From NCBI GenBank assembly GCA_018711305.1, contig DVIL01000036.1, positions 1-64,000 on the forward strand: 64,000 nucleotides of DNA, written 5' to 3'. The DNA is from Candidatus Coprenecus stercorigallinarum. GTDB lineage: Bacteria; Bacteroidota; Bacteroidia; Bacteroidales; UBA932. Shown here piece by piece: positions 17,215 to 61,940 of the stretch. Position 1 is the first letter of the stretch, and each line of letters opens with the position of its first letter. Under the pieces are notes generated by a model. The model saw only the letters and a list, made by a program, of their open reading frames with translations, was not told where the DNA came from and made no database searches. The position numbers and the translations under genes are program-made.

Positions 17215-17252
17215 GAAGGTGACGATGAAACACCATTTTCGTCGGCACCTTC
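17215..17252 (+). repeat. Family A 38-bp palindrome, copy 1
   Basis: GAAGGTGACGATGAAACACCATTTTCGTCGGCACCTTC. Confidence 0.9.
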
Positions 17253-28400: not shown

Positions 28401-28438
28401 GAAGGTGCCGATGAAATGCCAGTTTTGTCGGCACCTTT
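28401..28438 (+). repeat. Family A 38-bp palindrome, copy 2
   Basis: GAAGGTGCCGATGAAATGCCAGTTTTGTCGGCACCTTT. Confidence 0.9.
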
Positions 28439-28472: not shown

Positions 28473-28512
28473 CCGCAACGGCACCGAAACGCGGGATTCT
28501 CTGCCGTTGTGG
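28473..28512 (+). repeat. Family B 40-bp palindrome, copy 1
   Basis: CCGCAACGGCACCGAAACGCGGGATTCTCTGCCGTTGTGG. Confidence 0.88.
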
Positions 28513-28577
28513 TTTGGAGCCAAACGGGAAAACGGCTCTGAGCGGCCTCTCGAAGGGGCTGCAACGATACCGGTTTA

Positions 28578-28617
28578 CCGCAACGGCACCGAATCGCGGG
28601 ATTCTCTGCCGTTGTGG
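28578..28617 (+). repeat. Family B 40-bp palindrome, copy 2
   Basis: CCGCAACGGCACCGAATCGCGGGATTCTCTGCCGTTGTGG (one mismatch to copy 1). Confidence 0.88.
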
Positions 28618-36608: not shown

Positions 36609-39299
<2,691 letters not shown>

Positions 39300-39530: not shown

Positions 39531-39570
39531 CCGCAACGGCAGCTCTTCCCGCAATTCGGTGCCGTTGTGG
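39531..39570 (-). repeat. Family B 40-bp palindrome, copy 3 (reverse orientation)
   Basis: CCGCAACGGCAGCTCTTCCCGCAATTCGGTGCCGTTGTGG, close to the reverse complement of copy 1. Confidence 0.8.
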
Positions 39571-39633
39571 AAACAGTAAAGAAACATGGCCGGCGAAATG
39601 CATACGGACGAGGTCGCACAGTTGCGGGCACCG

Positions 39634-39989
39634 GAAGGTGACGATGAAACGCCGCTTTTGTCGGCACCTTCATGAAGGGAGCGCGGATGTATGGCCGGCA
39701 GAAGGGCCTACGGACGGAGTCGCACAGTTGCGGGTATCGGAAGGTGACGATGAAACGCCGTTTTTATCGGCACCTTCTTGAACGGAGCGCGGAAGTATGG
39801 CCGGCAGAAGGGCCTATGGACGGAGTCCCACAGTTGCGGGTACCGGAAGGTGACGATGAAAAGCCGCTTTCGTCGGCACCTTCTTGAACAGAGCGCGGAT
39901 GTATGGCCGGCAGAAGGGCCTATGGACGGAGTCCCACAGTTGCGGGCACCGGAAGGTGACGATGAAACGCCGTTTTTATCGGCACCTTC
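39634..39989 (+). repeat. Family A tandem array: four 38-bp palindromes (39634, 39740, 39846, 39952) at an exact 106-bp period with conserved 68-bp linkers
   Basis: Unit GAAGGTGACGATGAAACGCCGTTTTTATCGGCACCTTC + TTGAACGGAGCGCGGAAGTATGGCCGGCAGAAGGGCCTATGGACGGAGTCCCACAGTTGCGGGTACCG. Confidence 0.95.
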
Positions 39990-40060
39990 TTCAAGGAGTA
40001 AATGGGTTCCCTTGAGCAAAACGCAGACACGAACCACTGTAGGGGTACTACACGAATTCC

Positions 40061-40158
40061 ACTCCTTCCGAAGGAGTAGGGAAATGCGCGAAAGTACGAC
40101 TCCTTCCGAAGGAGTAGGGGGAAATGGCGGAGAAGCCGACTCCCTCGGAAGGGAACGT
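40061..40158. repeat. Family C palindromes ACTCCTTCCGAAGGAGT (40061-40077, 40099-40115, degenerate at about 40139-40156)
   Basis: 17-bp near-perfect palindrome repeated at a 38-40 bp period; fourth copy at 56705. Confidence 0.85.
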
Positions 40159-40229: not shown

Positions 40230-41267
40230 ATGGGATTACGTCTGACAATAATTGCGGCTGCTGCACTGATGACGGTGGCCGGCTGCGGACATAATGAAAA
40301 AAAATATACCGTAGTCAAGGACTTTCCGATAGAGGAGACGCTGGAACCGGTCAGGGTGGTGCATTACGATCCGGTTGAGAGCAACATCCTCACCCTGGAC
40401 AGGGCCGGGGACTGGTGGATATCCCAGAACATCAAGAATTACAGCGGTGAGTCGGACAGCAAGTGCTTCTCGCTGCTGGACGACGATTTCCGGACAGTGG
40501 TGCAGTTCGGCACATGGGGACGCGGTCCGCAGGAGTTCGTCTATGCATCGTATCAGGGATATGAGGGCATGAAAGGCGACTCGATAATCATCACGGTAAG
40601 GGACTGGACGCTTGGCCGGCTGATAAGGCTTACAGCCCACACCGGGAACGGCGGATACCGTACGGAACTGCATCAGGACTTCCATAAGAGCATGAGGGCC
40701 ATCCATTCCCTCGGAGACGGCCGCTGGCTGTGCAACGCGGACAACAACCGCTACTATTTCACCGGTCCGGAAGGGCTGCAGAAAACCTATCTCGAAGGCT
40801 GGGACGAGGGAGTAAACGAGACAGTCGAAGCCGAAATCACATACATGCCCCCGCAGTTCACCGGTGAGACCATATCTCCAGACTGTTCCAGACTGCTGGT
40901 CTACAGCATCACCTGGCCCGTCCTGTACCTGCACTCGATTGAGACCGGAGAGCGCCTGGCAGAGACATACGTGGATTACGGACCGGACGACATCGCCTCC
41001 GAGAACTACACCGCAGACCTGAGCTACAACCCTGCCCTATACCTGGGAAGCCGCCACATCGTAGGAATGCTCAATGACGAAGGAGGCTACAGCCCCATAC
41101 CATCCCGCATAGTCATCTTCGACACAGAACTGAACCCTGAGGCCTGCTACAGCATCGCCCCCGCCAACTACTTCGGCCTTGACCCGGCCACCGGCATCCT
41201 CGCCGCCATCTCCTACAATGAAGAGACCGTCAGCCTGTATGACCTTTCCGAATGGCTCAGCAAATAA
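40230..41267 (+). CDS. BF3164-like lipoprotein (6-bladed beta-propeller/TolB-like)
   Basis: Lipobox TVAGCGHN; FGTWGRGPQEFVYASYQGYEG; overall pattern of BF3164/DUF4221-type lipoproteins. Confidence 0.7.
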   Translation: MGLRLTIIAAAALMTVAGCGHNEKKYTVVKDFPIEETLEPVRVVHYDPVESNILTLDRAGDWWISQNIKNYSGESDSKCFSLLDDDFRTVVQFGTWGRGPQEFVYASYQGYEGMKGDSIIITVRDWTLGRLIRLTAHTGNGGYRTELHQDFHKSMRAIHSLGDGRWLCNADNNRYYFTGPEGLQKTYLEGWDEGVNETVEAEITYMPPQFTGETISPDCSRLLVYSITWPVLYLHSIETGERLAETYVDYGPDDIASENYTADLSYNPALYLGSRHIVGMLNDEGGYSPIPSRIVIFDTELNPEACYSIAPANYFGLDPATGILAAISYNEETVSLYDLSEWLSK

Positions 41268-56704: not shown

Positions 56705-56721
56705 ACTCCTTCGGAAGGAGT
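56705..56721. repeat. Family C palindrome, distant copy
   Basis: ACTCCTTCGGAAGGAGT. Confidence 0.8.
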
Positions 56722-60855: not shown

Positions 60856-61654
60856 CATACAGCCGTAAACTGAGGTATTCATCGTTCGAATTTAGCATAA
60901 CTGCAATGGACCAAAAATTACGGGACCATAAAGCACATCTCAAACTCAAAGGAGTGCAGGGTAGACTTTCGGCGAAAATAGATTGAGGAGATGTTTCTTG
61001 CGACCCAGGAGCATTTTTGCGGATAACCATTTGAATTTTCTATGCAAAACCCTTTAACCCTTTAACGATACGACAGTTACCACTCCGGCCGAGCACCTCA
61101 TCATCGCCTTTTACTCGCTTGCCAGATTCAGCCGGCCTGTCTCAACTGACCTGCCCGACTCAAATTGCCTGCTTGGCTTGCCAGACTCCCCAGACTCCCT
61201 ATGAGTCTGTTTCTGCGACTTACTGTACAAGTGATTGAAAACAAGTAGATTCCCTTGATACGCAATATAACAGACTGCCAGCGTAAAGACCCTGTCTGTT
61301 TTACCATAATTCATGCATATCACTATCCTACAAGCACTTGGTGTCAACATACCGAAACAGACTTGCCTGGGAAAAAGAACCCGATAGACTCACACCCGCC
61401 TTACAATGCTTCCTGACATAGATCTCGGGCAAAATCTGCCCAACCCCTTTTCTCAGTCTGTTTTCTACATTTTAGCACAACTTATTTATTTACAGAAAAA
61501 TATGCCCGCTCATCGATTACAGACTTCTGACAGAAACAGGGGTCAGTAGAAATTCAGCGAGGATAAATTTCTACTGTTACCTGAATTGCACTTTGGTCGA
61601 CAAACCGGCTCACAGCCCATGTCATTCAACACTACACCGCATCACGTGTAACCG

Positions 61655-61798
61655 GAAGGTGACGATGAAACGACACTTTCGTCGGCACCTTCAGCGGGGG
61701 GATACGGTGACAAGGCCGTCAGAAGGACCTGCGGACGGGGTTCCACGGCTGCGGGTGCCGGAAGGTGCCGATGAAACGCCATTTTCGTCGGCACATTC
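61655..61798 (+). repeat. Family A array: two 38-bp palindromes (61655, 61761), again 106 bp apart, with diverged linker
   Basis: GAAGGTGACGATGAAACGACACTTTCGTCGGCACCTTC ... GGCCGTCAGAAGGACCTGCGGACGGGGTTCCACGGCTGCGGGTGCCG GAAGGTGCCGATGAAACGCCATTTTCGTCGGCACATTC. Confidence 0.93.
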
Positions 61799-61940
61799 TA
61801 GGCTGCCTTGGAATCAAACTGCGCACAGCAAATCCCAGAGGGTCATCGATAAAAAGTTTTCCCCCGGATTGCAAACCTACATGCGTGTCCCGCTGAATTT
61901 CTACTGACCCAGAAACAAATACAGCAACAGAATGACGGCA

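Follow-up and report, generated by a model that had tools for sequence, protein, structure and literature searches.

A 106-bp hairpin array upstream of mutS in Candidatus Coprenecus stercorigallinarum is probably a RAYT-associated REP array

The divergent gap beside mutS in the window (the whole 64,000-nucleotide stretch of Candidatus Coprenecus stercorigallinarum DNA that we analysed) holds four hairpins repeated at a fixed interval, and we consider it probable (roughly 0.78) that they form a tandem group of REP-type hairpins, the sort of element that RAYT (TnpA_REP, Y1/HUH) transposases mobilise. Our best reading is a RAYT-associated REP array laid out head-to-tail, with a modular unit made of a clade-specific hairpin and a common linker core. 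The case is built from sequence: hairpins with a constant period, their dispersal, family-specific arrays adjoining RAYT genes in sister species, differences by whole units, and a core at the linker midpoint. An earlier note on this DNA had described neither the wider hairpin family nor a second palindrome family of equal period, and the link to RAYT genes and the common linker core likewise go beyond it.

The array is intergenic, with mutS on its left (36609-39299, minus strand) and a putative lipoprotein gene on its right (40230-41267, plus strand, as are all other window features given below). The best segment of mutS was 95% identical to the mutS of Candidatus Coprenecus avistercoris, and orthologues of the lipoprotein gene in sister species had 79-81% identity; the label "BF3164-like" that the earlier note gave this right-hand gene found no confirmation from Pfam or NCBIfam. 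A pattern scan and TRF both bore out that note's claim of palindromes starting at 39634, 39740, 39846 and 39952, exactly 106 bp apart. TRF placed the array at 39586-39998 (period 106, 3.9 copies, 90% match, 0% indels) with a score of 651, the top score within the window, and the 21-nt hairpin pattern of this family, designated F1, occurred eight times in the window, where 0.04 occurrences would be expected by chance. The palindromes are imperfect, 38 bp long, of the form GAAGGTGaCGATGAAA-N6-TTTcGTCGgCACCTTC, and all four have the same orientation. Hairpins 1 (39634-39671, GAAGGTGACGATGAAA-N6-TTTTGTCGGCACCTTC), 2 (39740-39777), 3 (39846-39883) and 4 (39952-39989, with the array ending at about 39998 by TRF), each identified by pattern and folding, are separated by linkers of 68 bp at 39672-39739, 39778-39845 and 39884-39951. 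To the left of hairpin 1 lies a diverged, incomplete linker (39586-39633, from the start of the TRF array and the sequence), which brings the array to four hairpins with three complete linkers and this partial one. A CRISPR array was rejected because the linkers are near-identical copies and not unique spacers, and a protein-coding tandem repeat because 106 bp is not a multiple of three and the ORFs match no family; the same frame argument had led the earlier note to discount a repeat protein, and the intergenic position of the family elsewhere agrees.

Taken singly, the hairpins of the array folded at -17.7 to -21.6 kcal/mol (z -2.9 to -5.1). Among 45 distinct F1 copies from across the genus the stem paired in 90.4% of cells, a level reached by 0 of 500 shuffles; columns 11-28 show replacement of A-U by G-U and G-C, and at column pair 8-31 there are 27 copies with a mismatch and 15 with C-G. 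Covariation between units, proposed earlier as a check, is real but modest: the number of stem pairs with double changes in these 45 copies was not above that of shuffles. The linker was conserved over its 68 bp as had been claimed, but the GGCC..GGCC inverted repeat attributed to it is weak, and the linkers folded no better than shuffles (z about 0 in most of them). The hairpins are stable, covary modestly and lie in a divergent upstream gap, as could fit regulation of mutS or the lipoprotein gene by a structured RNA, a terminator or an array of attenuators; we hold this to be very unlikely, however, in view of the lack of excess structure in the linkers, an Rfam search of the gap that returned four weak matches (E 0.4-0.96), all far under the gathering scores, the dispersal of the family near unrelated genes, and the presence of different hairpin families in the same gap of other species.

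That dispersal was evident in the genome of the window (G000, a 2.14-Mb draft of 102 contigs), where F1 matched at about 14 places with about 20 hairpins, either solo or in tandem at 105-106 bp. Our sampled sequence from this genome amounted to 785 kb, and copy densities taken from it are biased upwards because the sample was partly picked for known matches. The 105- or 106-bp spacing recurred at C1:61655 and 61761 (the second F1 pair of the window, 61655-61798, with 106-bp spacing), at C85:4436 and 4541, and at C24:24 and 130, and solo hairpins lie in the window at 17215-17252 and 28401-28438. At solo sites the sequence in common was limited to the hairpin and some 3 nt 5' of it. The 5' flank of F1 hairpins is mostly nCCG or nTCG. 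Fourteen of 16 F1 hairpins fell outside ORFs of at least 150 aa, though such ORFs make up 84% of the sample, and the other two lay inside an ORF that crosses the array. A search of 60 genomes found F1 in seven, the window's own and six others, all of them Candidatus Coprenecus, and none outside this genus. At three F1 sites (window ~61540-61910; L246 80-360; L244 4280-4480) the common sequence widened to a block of about 250-300 bp, reaching out from the hairpin in one direction or in both. Close to the block edges there is a short inverted match, and one or two F1 units lie within; this block looks like a MITE or IS remnant holding the hairpin.

A second and unrelated palindrome family, F2 (CCGCAACGGCA-N18-TGCCGTTGTGG), gave 17 exact occurrences in the same genome, counting both strands of the near-palindrome, with pairs and triplets at nine loci spaced by 104-106 bp. 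One F2 hairpin (39531-39570, matching at 39534; stem z -5.3) abuts the F1 array, and an F2 pair with 105-bp spacing (28476-28614) adjoins the solo F1 hairpin at 28401. Over all fetched sequence, 27 of 35 F2 intervals were 105 bp, F2 having been found by its hairpin alone, and 40 of 47 F1 intervals were 106 bp, a count favoured by the fetching of F1 loci for their likeness to the window array and overlapping with that for a further set of related hairpins, F1b, because near-palindromes are read on both strands. Arrays with a period of at least 60 bp in the 785-kb sample had periods of 62, 78, 83, 83, 105, 105, 105, 106 and 115 bp. Periods of 104-107 bp were seen in four or more families, and a third family, F3 (CACCTTCGGAAGGTG), has a period of 117-118 bp made of 39 + 79 bp. 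Palindromes of a fourth kind, F4 (ACTCCTTCCGAAGGAGT), occur in the window as a pair 38 bp apart (40061 and 40099, spanning 40061-40115 within the feature 40060-40120) and again at 56705-56721; the pair resembles the F3 pairs of sister species, which are 39 bp apart.

Proteins with the Pfam domain Y1_Tnp are expanded in the genus Coprenecus. These RAYT proteins matched NCBIfam NF047646 (REP_Tyr_transpos) at 26.8-45.2 bits, which is under the curated cut-off of 80 bits, and a PDB search with them returned no relative; their motifs are mostly S[TN]HVH and Y[IV][LVI][RK]NP. At least three RAYT clades in sister species each go with a separate hairpin family, arranged as a tandem array that starts about 35-56 bp past the stop codon. 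Trees and flank scans placed F1b hairpins with a 106-bp period from 55 bp past the stop in one clade (genome:contig G002:C41, G008:C57, G013:C3 and G016:C39), while F2 arrays of 105 bp begin 35-47 bp past the stop of the RAYTs G017:C8, G016:C42 and G011:C17, and F2 arrays also lie upstream of G017:C8, G016:C42 and G002:C84. The RAYTs G013:C10, G011:C1 and G016:C48 have F3 arrays of 117-118 bp, and two RAYTs of G009 have further arrays at 104 and 107 bp. A hairpin just upstream of L005 1505 (G000:C30, before 4883), GGTGAACCGAAACGGGCTAATTCGGTTCACC, is similar to the palindrome in the 104-bp array behind a RAYT on G009:C12. One F1b array (L174, 2849-3290) has two alternating linker types, giving a higher-order unit of 212 bp. 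RAYT-flanking arrays in other genera of the family had periods of 51-52, 66, 84 and 298 bp, and for that reason we rejected a universal RAYT period of 105 bp; RAYT-like genes carry tandem arrays on both sides in L309, L310 and L314 (84, 52 and 51/66 bp) and downstream in L300 (298 bp).

For F1 proper, as distinct from F1b, we found no RAYT with an adjoining array; the nearest case is the G000 RAYT on C87, which has one solo F1 hairpin 279 bp downstream. Other RAYT relatives in G000 are on C55 and C78, with a distant one on C51 and a truncated copy on C3 (at 83661) whose nearest match (84%) was G002:C10, itself related to the F3-type RAYTs. An intact RAYT of the array-bearing clades was not found in the G000 draft, and the array in its own genome looks orphan, though such absences are weak evidence because draft MAGs break at repeats of this kind. 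Some sister genomes have RAYT relatives and no F1 hairpins.

Unit number, which the earlier note suggested comparing between strains, was compared across species, and it changed in steps of complete units both in the mutS gap and next to RAYT genes. In the orthologues of the F1b RAYT site, the conserved right flanks begin at about +212 (G002), +318 (G016) and +424 bp (G008) past the stop, corresponding to two, three and four units. The orthologous mutS gap of other species contains one, two, four or six F3 palindromes and one or three F2 units, and not F1; the gap is thus a resident site that houses several families, and their arrays change unit-wise. Change in tandem copy number could by itself be explained by recombination with no transposase, which counts against our preferred reading and would fit a simple minisatellite, i.e., a segment bearing a hairpin by chance that was amplified by slippage or unequal crossover and has no link to a transposase. 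Units are also more alike within arrays than between them, as a minisatellite would have it. We nevertheless regard this account as unlikely, given that the hairpin is dispersed to unlinked sites without its linker, that other RAYT clades have their own hairpin family directly downstream, and that the same period recurs in an unrelated hairpin family.

The linkers of the two main families proved to have a core in common. A 30-bp weight matrix trained on F1 linkers only (consensus aAtGCCcGCgAGAGgGGCCTCcGaagcGGG) matched the window array at 39690-39719 (TATGGCCGGCAGAAGGGCCTACGGACGGAG, centred midway between hairpins), 39796-39825 and 39902-39931, and in 16 of 21 F2 loci, against 3.5 expected, its best match lay no more than 3 bp from the middle of the linker. 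F2 linkers differ strongly from locus to locus yet stay in register (z about 8; 0 of 5000 rotations), and the possibility that they are unrelated sequence of fixed length was rejected on the strength of this column register and of the F1-trained motif finding the midpoint. F1 linkers also have a weak dyad at the midpoint (z 3.3). A strong match to the core (CATGTCCGGCAGAAGTGCCTGCGGACAGGG) was seen at about 10450 of L219, on a 20-kb stretch with no detected F1 or F2 hairpin. Hairpin centres and cores follow one another in alternation at 52-53 bp, about five turns of the helix, as might be expected if a nucleoid or regulatory protein bound the double-stranded DNA as a phased array whose period was under selection; the exact midpoint position of the core in two families, the dyad, and the periods of 104-107 bp in four or more families speak for this. 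We nonetheless find it distinctly unlikely, as F3 departs from the period with its 39 + 79 bp, the RAYT arrays of other genera run at quite different periods, solo hairpins are common, and the shared ancestry of the units accounts for much of the constancy. A more general proposal, which we offer tentatively and think somewhat doubtful, is that Coprenecus RAYT systems are modular, each clade having its own hairpin and several having one midway linker core and one unit length (104-107 bp), such that the length would depend on how transposition works or on a phased complex and not on hairpin sequence.

Returning to a RAYT-associated REP array, the most likely course would be recognition of the single-stranded hairpin by a RAYT, which then spreads it through intergenic DNA; such action on F1 hairpins is our inference. 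The 38-bp hairpin is the dispersing part, and it matches RAYT relatives lineage by lineage. The array gains and loses whole units (hairpin plus 68-bp linker), in our reading either through excision and reinsertion of unit-length single-stranded DNA by the transposase or through recombination or slippage between direct repeats, and it may have some effect on mutS or the lipoprotein gene. No transposition event or empty site was observed among the sequences compared.

The origin of REP arrays and the reasons why RAYT genes persist have been studied mainly in Proteobacteria. Here a single genus has several RAYT clades, each beside a matching tandem array, with gain and loss of exact units and a linker core found across hairpin families. 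Coprenecus thereby provides ready RAYT/hairpin pairs for tests of recognition and a measurable unit length for tests of mechanism. Intergenic gaps such as the region upstream of mutS may also break short-read assemblies at repeats in this genus.

REP, BIME, REPIN and REPtron elements are described in PMC3733652 and PMC6006769, and the F1 system is like the REP/RAYT REPtrons of those accounts in having short, imperfect, dispersed intergenic hairpins, of a kind clustered at Y1/HUH transposase genes. REPs are imperfect palindromes of 20-40 bp, multicopy and mostly intergenic, and F1 agrees in each respect (38 bp, about 20 copies, 14/16 outside ORFs), but it does not carry a GTAG/GTGG or CGTC tag at its foot and has a CCG-like 5' flank instead. 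RAYTs flanked by hairpins of the same family, which define a REPtron, were found for F1b, F2 and F3 in sister genomes. The arrays differ from the described REPtrons in being head-to-tail with a fixed unit of 105-106 bp. As for IS200/IS605-type MITEs, a pair of same-orientation hairpins bounding a fixed-length segment would fit the subterminal hairpins of this transposase superfamily; our comparison identified neither an insertion target nor a site of cleavage. The BIMEs and REPINs of E. coli and Pseudomonas likewise have multiple hairpins and conserved spacers and are sometimes tandem, but their unit is an inverted pair of REPs (PMC6006769), whereas F1 hairpins all have one orientation; the earlier description "BIME-like" holds as to the kind of element, given the dispersed intergenic hairpins linked to RAYT genes, but not as to inverted pairs. 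The closest known case is that of the Bacteroidetes RAYTs of TnpA_REP subclass 2.6 (RAYT group 5), which according to PMC6006769 are flanked by "atypical secondary structures" copied elsewhere in the genome and have the motifs NH[LIV]H, WQ and YIH[QN]NP. Coprenecus RAYTs have HVH and a different Y motif, and the portion of PMC6006769 on subclass 2.6 that we drew on describes no fixed-period array or linker core, unlike what we see in Coprenecus. We therefore file the array as a variant of the RAYT-associated REP array and not as a BIME, set apart by its orientation, fixed unit length and linker core, and by the Y motif of the RAYT proteins.
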